This document shows positions 51,538 to 55,963 of a stretch of 64,000 nt of DNA, one piece after another. Within the stretch, counting starts at the first letter, position 1. Each line of letters opens with the position of its first letter. The stretch lies in the NCBI GenBank assembly GCA_903926465.1, contig CAIYJE010000067.1:186001-250000 (forward strand). The letters are read 5' to 3'. Under the pieces are notes generated by a model. That model was not told the origin of the DNA. It did not search any database and saw only the letters and a program-made list of their open reading frames with translations. Both the position numbers and the translations under genes were made by a program. Origin of the DNA: an uncultured Planctomycetales bacterium. GTDB taxonomy: Bacteria > Planctomycetota > Planctomycetia > Isosphaerales > Isosphaeraceae.

Positions 51538-52092
51538 GAGCATCCTTTCCCGACACGGGTATCAAGCTCGGCCGCACAACTCCCGGAGAAGACGAACCAC
51601 CGAACCGCCTGCGAGTCGAATTGATCACGCAAGTTGGCGGTATTTTACCAGCTGACCCACCAGATTTCACCTGGTCGATTCATGCCAGCCCTGCCGAGGG
51701 CGATTGTTCGGATGGTAAATCCAGAGAGATTCGCCGGTTACGTAATCTGGTCAATCAAGGCCACCTGGTGGGTCGTCTGAGCCCAGAGCCATTATCAAAC
51801 CGGCTCCAAGGGGAGCGGTGCGAGGATTGGGGTCTGATTGCCAGAGTTTGGGAGGGGCAAGCGCACTCACAGGTCGGTTTCGGATTGGAACCAGACGCCA
51901 ATGAATGCCTACCAACTTTCCAAACAAGATCGCCCAGGGTTGTTGGCCCTGGGCGATCTTCCAACGCTCGTTTTAGCTCAAAGCAGAGACTGTGAGGCCT
52001 GGGTGGCTTGCGGGTACTCGGTTTCTGAGCGGCTGATTCTTTTTCCCACGGTTCAGGGAGGGCCTTGGAAGCGGGCCTGCGCTTGCAAGCTC
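51538..52092. other. Long intergenic region, no supported gene
   Basis: This 555-bp stretch lies between the sigma-54-like regulator start and the end of the minus-strand TPR-type gene. The only clear element is the 14-bp hairpin at 51926-51960. Open frames here (for example 51621-51995 plus) have no recognisable domain or good ribosome site. The promoter of the regulator gene should be within its first 200 bp. Confidence 0.5.
51926..51960 (-). terminator. Strong hairpin, probable terminator of the minus-strand operon
   Basis: A perfect 14-bp inverted repeat (AAGATCGCCCAGGG/CCCTGGGCGATCTT) with a 7-base loop lies about 130 bp downstream of the minus-strand gene ending at 52093. The minus-strand side is followed by GTTTGG, the plus side by CGTTTTAG, neither a long T tract, so termination is plausible rather than certain. 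Confidence 0.5.
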
Positions 52093-53256
52093 TCAGCGAA
52101 TTCCTGCCCCTTCAGTTTTTGGCTTTTTGGCAGATTCCGGGTCAATGGATGGGCGTTTCTTGCTCTCGCCAGGGGCGGGCACGCGCAGGGCATCGGCTGG
52201 ATCAACGGTTCGGCCGCTGGTTCCCGTCGGTTTGGCGGTTTTCGCCGCGTCGGCTGTGGCTTCGATCTCTTCGATATCCATTCGCAGTCGGGTTGGGGCC
52301 GTGAAAGGCAGCACCTTGGTACGACGGCCGCCCTGGAGTGTTACGGTGACCGGTTCGGTGGAGTTGAGGTTCACAGCACGCGATTCTTGTTTCTCGTCAG
52401 GGCTTCCCTCATGCGTGATCACCTCAAGGGTCACGTCATGGGCAGGGTCTTTGGGGTTGTTGTAGAGGGTGTCTACCTGAACCTCGTAATTGCCTTCAAA
52501 ACCGAGTGGGCAAACATACTCGCTTTCAGCATGCTTTCCACGGCCGGCTTTGATAATCGAGCCGCCGAACACGGTGCGTGGTTCAGCGACCGAGGCTTGT
52601 GCCCCTAGCGGTTCTTTCACACGCAGTTCCAGTCCGGCGTCCCCTTTCCAGGTCAATCGCAGGAAGAGGTCACGGGGTTCGCTGGACTGAAGGTGGGCAC
52701 GCAGGGTGCTGGCTTCCTCGGCTTTGCCGGCCCGTTCGAGTTTCAGGGCCATGGCCTCCACCCGCTTGCGAGTTTCGGTTCTCCAGAGTTCGTCATAGCC
52801 TGGCCAGCCAATGGAGAGCAGGTTGTCTGCCGTGCTGGCCATCCGGACCGGGTCGTTGGTTTTTTCCGCCAGAAGCATGGAAAGCAGAATTGGCTCGTAA
52901 CGGTGAGGGGCCTTTTCATGGGCCAGGTCGAGCAGCTCACCGGTCCGAATGGGTGGTTGGTTATTGGGTAGTGGCAGTTCGCTGATGTCGCGCAGGATGA
53001 GAATGTCGGCCACCTCGATCAGGGTGAACGGATCTTTCTGTCTTCTGGCAAGATAGCCGGCCCAGGCCAGGGCGGTTTTGGCACTTTCGGGCGATCGGCC
53101 ATTCACTTCGTACGTCACGGCCAAAAGCAGGTACATCCAGGGTTCAGCCCGGGTTCCGTGGTATTTCAGATAAGAGGCGATCGCTTGTTCAACCTCACCC
53201 ATGCGATTGAACTGACGTAGAAACCGGACATCGTAAAGCAACTGGGCGGGTGACAC
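52093..53256 (-). CDS. TPR-like protein with C-terminal beta domain, start unresolved
   Basis: The only standard start is GTG 53256, giving 387 residues, but it has no ribosome site, and the in-frame codons before it (VVDYDSHYKTHD) look coding. The N-terminal about 200 residues are helical and TPR-like (VEQAIASYLKYHGTRAEPWMYLLLAVTYEVNG). The following about 120 residues form a beta domain (LFLRLTWKGDAGLELRVKEP, YEVQVDTLYNNP), and the end is Lys/Pro/Ala-rich. Without a signal peptide of its own, it may be expressed only as an extension of the upstream protein through a frameshift at A9. Function is unknown. A hairpin terminator follows. Confidence 0.6.
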   Translation of the reverse strand: MSPAQLLYDVRFLRQFNRMGEVEQAIASYLKYHGTRAEPWMYLLLAVTYEVNGRSPESAKTALAWAGYLARRQKDPFTLIEVADILILRDISELPLPNNQPPIRTGELLDLAHEKAPHRYEPILLSMLLAEKTNDPVRMASTADNLLSIGWPGYDELWRTETRKRVEAMALKLERAGKAEEASTLRAHLQSSEPRDLFLRLTWKGDAGLELRVKEPLGAQASVAEPRTVFGGSIIKAGRGKHAESEYVCPLGFEGNYEVQVDTLYNNPKDPAHDVTLEVITHEGSPDEKQESRAVNLNSTEPVTVTLQGGRRTKVLPFTAPTRLRMDIEEIEATADAAKTAKPTGTSGRTVDPADALRVPAPGESKKRPSIDPESAKKPKTEGAGIR

Positions 53257-53447
53257 GTCGTGCGTTTTGTAGTGACTGTCGTAATCGACAACCGGCCCGG
53301 TTGGCAGGCTCAGCTCTTCAGAACCTGCTGCATCAGGCCGGGTTCGGTTGGGTAAACGCGAATCGGGGCCGGAGGCTGGGGAACCAGCACTCCGACCCCG
53401 ATTATTTGGCGAATCTTCAGACCGAGCGTTAGGAGGAAGGAAGCCGC
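53257..53447 (-). other. Gap with two open minus-strand frames between the two genes
   Basis: Two frames are open on the minus strand. Frame A continues directly after the stop of the upstream gene for 45 sense codons to a TGA at 53310-53312, including a possible GTG start at 53390 for 26 residues ending LMQQVLKS. Frame B is the 52093 gene extended upstream without any stop but also without a start codon. By my hand count GC at third positions is about 69% in frame A and about 48% in the distal part of frame B, so frame A looks more coding there. The true arrangement is not clear. Confidence 0.4.
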
Positions 53448-55175
53448 TCAGGGCGTTTTTTTTTGAAGGAATGAGTTGGCGTCTGGGGCACCTGGAACCT
53501 GTGGTGGTGCCGGTGGGATGGAACCGAATCCACCACCCATACCGCCACCGCCCATACCACCGCCGCCCATACCGCCACCACCCATACCGCCCATGCCACC
53601 GCCACCCATACCGCCACCGCCCATACCGCCGCCACCCATACCACCACCGCCCATACCGCCACCCATGCCACCGCCCATACCGCCACCACCACCGCCGCCG
53701 GTCATCAGTGAGATTGGGATCATGGCGAGGTCAGCGACCGGGTAAACCTTGATCTCGATGGGCAGATCTTTAGACCCGATGTAGGTAATGGTCATGAGTC
53801 CGTCTTTGACGGTGTAGGTCATGTCGAGCTGCTTGAGCAAGAGGCGAAGCGACTTCTTCAGAGGCACGCCATCCAGCTTGAGCTGGACAGGGCTCTGCAT
53901 TGTCTTTTCCGCTTCCTGAAGCCCGGCGGGATCCACGTAGATGGGAATACCCTTGGGAAGCCTTGGGTTATTCAATTCCGTGGTGGCCGACTGGATGTAC
54001 TTGAGCACGTTCTCAAGCGGTTCTTCAGGGTCGAACGGCATCGAGATTTCCTGATCCAGGGCGTCATAAATCGCCTGAGTCTTCTCGTCTTTGCTATCGA
54101 GAGAGACCGACTCATAGCGACGAATTCGCTTCTCGGAAATTTCACGCCAGCGAGCAGCCGATGGGTACTCGATGGTGATGGTGTCCGGGAACGGAACGCT
54201 TGCCCGGTCAACGTCCGAGAGTGTCATCAGGAAGCGGTATCGCTTCAGTTCCTCGAACTGGAGTTGCTGGAGCAAGAACCCCTCGAACGAGGCCTTGTAG
54301 ATACCAGCCCAGGGGGCTTCGGCGCGGGGGATGAGTGCGCGAGCATGCTGAGCAGCAAGCCGAGCTTCAAAAAACGGAGCCGTTGCGGCCTGAATGTCGC
54401 CGGTACCGCCGTTGTAGAGAACGTTGTAAACGCCCTGATCCATCAACCGGTCATACTGGTTCATGAGAACCTTGACCGTGGCCTGGGTCCGTTCCTGCTC
54501 GCTAACCTGTCTGGCCAGTTCGTCAGACATGCCGGCCCGGCGCATTGCCTCGGCCTGTTCCAGTTCCAGTTCTTCCTCACGGCGAACGGTGGACTGGATC
54601 TGGGTTTGCAGTTCTCTGCGAAGCTGGTTCCGGATTTCGTCGGGAACTCCTTCCGAGGTTTGCAAGGCGTTAATGCCAAGGCGAAGCAGGTTCAGGGCTG
54701 CCTGGGGTTGCCCTTGGTTCAGCAGTTCTCGGGCACGCTGCTGACGCTCACGAATATCGGTGTTGAGTTGCTGGGTTCGCACCCGCTCGGCCTGAGAGGC
54801 AGCCTCAATGGTGGCCGAGGTCTGTGGCTGCTCAATATACGCAGGAGCCGGCGCCAGGGTTGAGCCATCGGCAAACGCAGGAGCCGGAGGCGGAGCGATG
54901 GTGGATCCACCAGCAACGTCTTGAAGGGCCACTTGTTTGACACCCAGGTCCGACAACATGCGGGATGCGTCGGCATTGTCTGGGTTGAGCCGAAGCGCCT
55001 GCTGGACGAACGAGGCCGCTTCCGACTTCTGGCCCTGCGCCAGGGCTTGACGCCCCAGGCCAACCAGTTGCTCGGAGAGAGGCAGATCAGAAGCCGAGGC
55101 CATTCCACTGCTAAAAAGCAGTCCTAGCGTTGCTAGCGGCCCGGCGCCCTTCCACGGTCGCACGGTTTGGGACAT
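53448..55175 (-). CDS. Secreted TPR/secretin-like protein with Gly-Met-rich tail
   Basis: The 575-residue protein has a signal peptide (to about residue 28, ASAS), a TPR-like pair (LGRQALAQGQKSEAASFVQQALRLNPDNADASRMLSDLG), a Pro/Ala linker, and a coiled coil (about 130-220). A domain at about 385-470 has IPIYVDPAGLQEAEKTMQSPVQLKLDGVPLKKSLRLLLKQLDMTYTVKDGLMTITY, resembling the short secretin/STN N-terminal fold. About 57 residues of GGGGM-type repeats follow (see repeat), ending in FGSIPPAPPQVPG. It is probably a periplasmic or surface scaffold. The start ATG at 55175 is supported by the signal. The stop is preceded by an A9 tract. Confidence 0.72.
   Translation of the reverse strand: MSQTVRPWKGAGPLATLGLLFSSGMASASDLPLSEQLVGLGRQALAQGQKSEAASFVQQALRLNPDNADASRMLSDLGVKQVALQDVAGGSTIAPPPAPAFADGSTLAPAPAYIEQPQTSATIEAASQAERVRTQQLNTDIRERQQRARELLNQGQPQAALNLLRLGINALQTSEGVPDEIRNQLRRELQTQIQSTVRREEELELEQAEAMRRAGMSDELARQVSEQERTQATVKVLMNQYDRLMDQGVYNVLYNGGTGDIQAATAPFFEARLAAQHARALIPRAEAPWAGIYKASFEGFLLQQLQFEELKRYRFLMTLSDVDRASVPFPDTITIEYPSAARWREISEKRIRRYESVSLDSKDEKTQAIYDALDQEISMPFDPEEPLENVLKYIQSATTELNNPRLPKGIPIYVDPAGLQEAEKTMQSPVQLKLDGVPLKKSLRLLLKQLDMTYTVKDGLMTITYIGSKDLPIEIKVYPVADLAMIPISLMTGGGGGGGMGGGMGGGMGGGGMGGGGMGGGGMGGGGMGGMGGGGMGGGGMGGGGMGGGFGSIPPAPPQVPGAPDANSFLQKKTP
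53456..53464 (-). repeat. A9 homopolymer near the 3' end of the secretin-like gene
   Basis: Nine T on the plus strand (A on the coding strand), 5 bases before the gene's stop codon. One extra A during transcription (or in the true sequence) would shift translation into frame B, which is open into the gene at 52093. Confidence 0.6.
53531..53701 (-). repeat. Gly-Met minisatellite in coding sequence
   Basis: About eleven units of a short repeat (mostly GGGGM, 15 bp; some GGGM, 12 bp) are arranged in tandem, spanning about 57 residues. Slippage-prone; probably a flexible linker in the secreted protein. Unit number may vary between strains. Confidence 0.85.
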
Positions 55176-55594
55176 CTCTGGAAACTCCGAAAGAAGGGAG
55201 ACCGGAAGGTGACCGGTTCAGCCGCGAAGGTAGGTTTGTATAACTGTAAAGTGCCAGGGCTGAGGCGGGCAAGCCAGAGGGTTTGTACCGGCTTGGTCGG
55301 TCGGCTCGATGCACTTTTCCGATGGTGTTGACAATCCCGTCACAGGGCAGACCTTCAAGTTGGAAAAAGGACCCTGATGCTCCATTATGGCATACGGATT
55401 GTGGGTGAGCCAAACCTGTGCCGTTGGAGTTGATCCGGTTACACCTTTTGACACAACCAGGAACCCGTTCTATGCCACTGGCAGGACCAATCTCGTCGAT
55501 TTCTGACATCGTTGACGCCCACCAGAGCTGTCAGCTCTAAAGAGACGCCTCCCTCTCCCGCGGAAAGTGATCCGTGTGCCCTGGAGCTGATCCC
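55176..55594. other. Divergent intergenic region with no gene
   Basis: This 419-bp region separates the secretin-like gene (minus) from the small conserved protein gene (plus). Overlapping open frames here are not convincing. It should hold promoters for both sides; the plus-strand candidate is noted separately. I saw no hairpin or repeat of note. Confidence 0.55.
55448..55476 (+). promoter_or_regulatory. Putative sigma-70 promoter
   Basis: TTGACA at 55448-55453 and TATGCC at 55471-55476 are separated by exactly 17 bp. It points to the small conserved gene starting at 55595. The -35 is perfect and the -10 matches at three of six positions. Confidence 0.45.
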
Positions 55595-55963
55595 ATGACG
55601 CCGCATAATGGTAAGACGACCGCACCAGACTCTTTATTCGAGGGCAGCCAACAGTTCCCGGACCAAAATCCCAAGTCCCCAAATCAGCCCCAGAATTCGG
55701 GCCAGCTCAGCCTGACAACCCACGAGTTCGCCCCCGAATCTGCGGGCCGAGGGAATCGGGTGAAACGCAGGCGACGGGTGGATCCCGTGACCTTTGAAAA
55801 ACAGTATTCCCGTGATGAGATGGAATTCATCAACGCGATGCAGGGGTTCAAGCTCAAGACCGGCAATTCGTTTCCTAGCTATGGAGAGGTTCTGGCCGTG
55901 GCCAGAGGTCTTGGTTACCAAAGACCATCAGGGTTACCGGATGGTTCCGAACTCAGAGTCTGA
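55595..55963 (+). CDS. Small conserved-looking protein, function unknown
   Basis: From ATG 55595 (GGAG about nine bases upstream) it encodes 122 residues. The N-terminal half is disordered (Gln/Asn/Pro-rich), then a basic patch RVKRRRRVDP precedes a compact C-terminal part KQYSRDEMEFINAMQGFKLKTGNSFPSYGEVLAVARGLGYQR, which looks like a small helical DNA- or nucleic-acid-binding domain. I do not recognise the family. It is followed by a strong terminator at 56073. The frame begins at 55574 upstream but the 55595 ATG is better placed. Confidence 0.6.
   Translation: MTPHNGKTTAPDSLFEGSQQFPDQNPKSPNQPQNSGQLSLTTHEFAPESAGRGNRVKRRRRVDPVTFEKQYSRDEMEFINAMQGFKLKTGNSFPSYGEVLAVARGLGYQRPSGLPDGSELRV

Follow-up and report, generated by a model that had tools for sequence, protein, structure and literature searches.

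A conserved nine-adenine run marks a probable programmed recoding site in a planctomycete gene

On the minus strand of the window, the whole 64,000-nt stretch of Isosphaeraceae DNA analyzed here, two adjacent open reading frames meet at a homopolymer, and the locus raises the question of whether they are two genes, one gene broken by an error, or one gene whose frame is restored during expression. ORF1 (53448..55175, 575 aa) ends CTT-CAA-AAA-AAA-ACG-CCC-TGA, with exactly nine A at 53456..53464. The run starts 14 nt before the stop codon (TGA, 53448..53450), which lies two codons past it, and the short 0-frame product ends QKKTP, a short tail that is conserved. Reading-frame analysis of the minus strand bore out a first-pass annotation that had placed ORF1 one A short of fusion with its neighbor: one additional A at the run gives an uninterrupted ORF1–ORF2 fusion. 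The -1 frame opens 280 nt 5′ of the ORF1 stop and stays open until ORF2 ends at 52093. ORF2, taken from the A run to its stop (52093..53466), comprises a variable linker, a TPR solenoid, and a beta-rich domain. The third frame, read by transcripts with one A fewer or two extra, closes at a TAA (53429..53431) that lies 5′ of a hairpin described below. The 45 open codons annotated in the 0 frame after the ORF1 stop are present, but no sign of coding was found in them. From the sequence and its relatives, we think it likely that the locus is one recoded gene, in which RNA polymerase slippage at the A9 run gives rise to a short and a fused protein and the hairpin 3′ of the run is probably a weak terminator.

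The protein encoded by ORF1 had been called secretin-like. It has no match to PF00263, however; the four PF00263 matches of the genome, a 6.9 Mb draft in 207 contigs, are on other contigs, and TPR is the only Pfam match of ORF1 above cut-off. The structure model of ORF1 is poor (mean pLDDT 59). Its Gly/Met-rich C-terminal tail is a Gly-Gly-Gly-Met repeat (53540-53690), and the antisense and third-frame ORFs over this tail look like by-products of the repeat. The AlphaFold2 model of the 387-aa ORF2 frame contains a helical TPR-like part (52681..53256, minus strand; residues 1-192, pLDDT mostly >90), followed by a beta-rich domain (52336..52674, minus strand; residues 195-307) with weak similarity to DUF2135. 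The DUF2135 (PF09906) score in ORF2 is 17.0 bits, under the curated cut-off of 22, and similarly weak matches occur in 4 of 18 ORF2 homologues. A PDB structure search with ORF2, which barely covered the beta domain, returned TPR folds only. The products of both frames may be envelope or scaffold proteins.

We compared 146 orthologous junctions, many of them from draft genomes, in two families: f1, to which the window belongs, and f2, presumably the Gemmataceae. The run is A9 in 141 junctions (43 of 44 in f1 and 98 of 102 in f2), A10 in four, and A8 in one. The same fetched regions, 509,474 bases in all, contain no other run of at least nine A, which excludes chance; across the full 6.9 Mb genome to which the window belongs, A9 matches number 40 when each overlapping one is counted. 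ORF1 homologues were found in 59 of 59 relatives searched and ORF2 homologues in 44 of the 45 genomes of the window's family, and same-family ORF1 orthologues are 46-65% identical. Named records identify f1 as Isosphaeraceae, and A9 is present in Singulisphaera acidiphila DSM 18658 (complete genome), Singulisphaera sp. GP187, Tautonia sociabilis, Aquisphaera insulae, and Paludisphaera soli. A tree of the ORF2 domain, run to show a single origin of the A run, did not join the two A9 families.

These counts bear on two explanations that place the frame break in the DNA itself. Homopolymers are error-prone and the window comes from a draft assembly, so that a sequencing or assembly error, or else a decayed pseudogene, could be suspected; the first-pass annotation had raised both a homopolymer error and a true sequence with ten A, which would simply be one gene. 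Recurrence of the nine-A run in more than 140 independent assemblies, including a complete genome and isolates, rules out a sequencing or assembly error and contradicts both suggestions. ORF2, moreover, is well conserved and has a predicted fold of high confidence, which speaks against decay, and we give an erroneous or decayed locus almost no credence. Replication slippage within the run could instead toggle the fusion by phase variation. The four A10 and one A8 junctions speak for this, as does the mutability of homopolymers, but phase-variable tracts occur in mixed states; 141 of 146 genomes here share one length and other lengths are nearly absent, and DNA-level switching appears highly improbable.

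The fused form exists elsewhere. In most other families of the class, the two parts form a single fused ORF lacking the A run: families f3, f4, f5, and f7 carry both in one open frame of about 1,200-1,600 codons, and the single frame without the run was seen in ten other-family genomes and in 12 named loci outside Isosphaeraceae. The comparison of orthologues for fused or split forms, which had been proposed earlier, thus gave a split gene with A9 in two families and a fused gene in most others, and these fused homologues show that the fusion is meaningful. Two loci in other families (L270 of G314 and L109 of G041) have their parts seemingly out of one frame and no A run; they seem to be draft errors or a different arrangement. 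One of the fused proteins has an N-terminus that scores as von Willebrand A type. By eye, f2 ORF1 (L105, L110, L118) is longer and opens with a von Willebrand A-like stretch that is absent from the ORF1 of the window. Four ORF1 paralogues without ORF2 (L100, L101, L102, L103) all lack the run.

If the two frames were separate genes, ORF2 would have a start of its own, through internal initiation or through coupling, and the run would be incidental. In the window, the annotated start GTG 53256 is present, with no ATG, GTG, or TTG of the ORF2 frame between it and the A run, and many orthologues have an in-frame ATG, GTG, or TTG somewhere in the linker. Several genomes (G013, G014, G020, G034, G036, G042, and G046), however, lack any start codon from the run to the conserved ORF2 domain; in the aligned junctions, the run is followed by an uninterrupted ORF2 frame; and an incidental run would not hold at nine in 141 genomes. 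We therefore regard separate genes as very unlikely.

How the frame is restored is a closer question. ORF2 is reached by one additional A, or by a -1 ribosomal shift, in 138 of the 146 genomes. Five genomes, all with A9, require the opposite direction, with one A fewer or two more (G121, G145, G069, G089, and G107); these exceptions rest on few lineages, the first three being species of one genus and the other two single genomes. The parts are already in frame in three (G065 and G136, both A10, and G103, A9). In G103 (locus L253), ORF1 is missing, ORF2 follows a short hydrophobic leader instead, and A9 is kept. Another frame relation was considered for G116 and G117; comparison with G142 makes G117 ordinary and leaves G116 ambiguous, and both were entered in the counts as -1 from comparison of their tails. 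The codon phase of the run is free, in that all three start positions are used and differ by lineage. In G002 and G021, the run has shifted by one base through changes silent in the ORF2 frame, and its length is still nine. Past the run, the 0 frame closes after a median of 2 codons in f1 (maximum 3) and 4 in f2 (maximum 9), where control positions give 28 and 24; the third frame closes after 6 and 5 codons, compared with 46 and 23. Such early stops in both other frames are what one would expect if the messages varied in their number of A.

The main rival to polymerase slippage is programmed -1 ribosomal frameshifting at A_AAA_AAA on a faithful message. The slippery heptamer is in the right frame within every A9, including all -1 cases, and folding directly 3′ of the run (0-45 nt) is slightly more stable than in shuffles (mean z about -1.07 and -0.67 in the two families). 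For slippage genes, a published criterion is that the direction of the shift is not fixed among orthologues (PMC3711429); the tally here, 138 junctions at -1, five at +1 (three of one genus), and three in frame, leans by that rule to ribosomal shifting. Against this stand several features of the junction. The run is nine A long and is used in all three phases, where a ribosomal slippery heptamer needs only seven A. Lineages that need the opposite direction, or no shift at all, retain the run. Shine–Dalgarno-like stimulators are not enriched 5′ of it (4.7% and 2.0% of genomes, versus a background of 7.2% and 7.5%), and the conserved hairpin mostly begins about 50 nt or more 3′, rather than at the usual 5-9 nt. 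Selection for polymerase slippage would favor a length of nine whatever the phase. Because of the run of nine in place of seven, the free phase, and a direction that is not absolute, transcriptional slippage, which had been named at first pass as a known route to such fusions, fits best. We infer that it, not ribosomal shifting, is the main event, and that the A9 run is a site of programmed recoding, most likely by RNA polymerase slippage. Ribosomal shifting as the sole cause seems unlikely, if by some distance the most credible of the rivals; polymerase slippage and ribosomal shifting may possibly act together.

The second conserved element of the junction, which like the two-family conservation of the run was absent from the first-pass annotation, is a hairpin inside ORF2. 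In the window, it is a GC-rich, terminator-like stem-loop of 43 nt, AATCGGGGTCGGAGTGCTGGTTCCCCAGCCTCCGGCCCCGATT (53361..53403, minus strand), located 52-94 nt past the run, and a GC-rich stem-loop about 50-100 nt past the run is found in most genomes (loci L065-L132 and L171-L268). In both families, a scan of folding stability has a sharp minimum (mean z -1.7 and -2.3) 60-105 nt past the run, with z near 0 in most other windows of the scan. The best hairpin scores at least 30 in 55% and 59% of junctions, compared with 1.6% and 0.3% of control windows, and its median energy is about -29 and -26 kcal/mol. Stem sequences differ widely while pairing is kept: 50 and 88 cells were changed on both sides of the stem, shuffles gave about 17 and 24 such cells, and the covariation signal is lost when the pairing partner is slid. 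Because the covariation analysis used hairpins that had been picked as good hairpins, it overstates the percentage paired, a bias that does not affect the comparison with control windows.

Several observations concern whether this hairpin terminates transcription. The T fraction 3′ of the stem is 0.30 and 0.35, over a background of 0.16 and 0.19, an enrichment that resembles that of the post-ORF2 hairpins in f1 and is weaker than the T-tract terminators of two ORF1-only paralogues. Three of these four paralogues (L100-L102) have a strong terminator-like hairpin 51-64 nt past the stop, that of L103 is weaker, and only L100 and L101 have a T-tract after it. A simple terminator scan that needs at least five T in the 8 nt past the stem did not report the junction hairpin, and an Rfam search over 52000-55600 gave no match. 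The tail is only mildly T-rich, which makes terminator activity uncertain; we nevertheless think that the junction hairpin probably terminates some transcription. Past ORF2, a hairpin with a perfect 14-bp stem and a poor T tail, AAGATCGCCCAGGGCCAACAACCCTGGGCGATCTT (51926..51960, minus strand), is the probable terminator of the unit.

The hairpin is also placed in relation to the reading frames. Of the 107 genomes in which the hairpin is clear, 105 have the 0-frame stop 5′ of it and 97 the third-frame stop; the two f2 genomes with the parts in frame (G136 and G103) have weak hairpins only. A mechanism consistent with this layout would run as follows. RNA polymerase would slip on the nine A in elongation and produce messages with nine, ten, or other numbers of A. 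A nine-A message would lead ribosomes to the ORF1 stop two codons on and give the short protein; a ten-A message would allow ORF2 to be read and give a fusion of about 1,030 residues, the presumed counterpart of the C-terminal part of the single-ORF protein in other planctomycete families. Both proteins would, by this reading, be needed. Ribosomes in either nonproductive frame would halt 5′ of the hairpin, probably a weak intrinsic terminator, whereas those on slipped messages would pass through and open it, so that the downstream transcript would be tied to the slipped message. This slippage-gated attenuator, in which the choice of frame would set both the protein end and transcription of the rest of the gene, is put forward tentatively, and we hold it with distinctly less confidence than slippage itself. 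In ribosome-controlled attenuators such as the trp and pheA leaders, hairpin formation depends on where the ribosome stops. The proposed device would be analogous in that a terminator-like hairpin is governed by ribosome position, and would differ in its cue, which would be a slippage-set reading frame within a structural gene instead of ribosome stalling on a leader peptide.

This gene did not come up in literature searches on planctomycete frameshifting and on slippage coupled to attenuation, and the closest relatives of the junction are slippage systems in other bacteria. Polymerase slippage at nine A in bacteria is supported (PMC1088944), frameshifting reached 40% with a 9-A cassette in E. 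coli (PMC3711429), and efficient in vivo slippage is described at runs of nine A or T and in Thermus thermophilus dnaX (PMC5009743). The dnaX gene shares with the planctomycete gene a chromosomal nine-A run, nearby stops in the other frames, and two length forms. In dnaX, however, the DNA encodes the long form and the short one arises by slippage, whereas the planctomycete DNA encodes the short form and slippage would give the long one; the text consulted on dnaX describes no internal hairpin. In Citrobacter rodentium tssM1, slippage at a run of eleven A just 5′ of a stop restores the C-terminal domain, and both forms and their ratio matter (PMC4256274). That run is A11 and is reported for tssM1 and a Yersinia relative (PMC4256274), whereas the planctomycete run is nine, fixed in two families, and accompanied by a conserved hairpin. 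Magnesium chelatase and other GeneTack fs-gene clusters likewise have adjacent ORFs joined through a frameshift at poly-A, with fused homologues elsewhere; they encode different proteins, and the runs of the tested cassettes ranged from 7 to 11 (PMC3711429).

It is the frame break in the DNA alone that makes this locus resemble two genes, a warning for the reading of such pairs. To our knowledge, few slippage genes are documented in cellular chromosomes, many of the known cases coming from insertion sequences, and the present one is testable in cultured species. The pairing of the hairpin with the run suggests a link between slippage and termination, a description of which we did not find in the literature. 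If the attenuator is real, the slippage frame would control the protein end and downstream transcription alike. Fixation of the run across two families of one class indicates that its length, and probably the ratio of the two products, has been under long-term selection.
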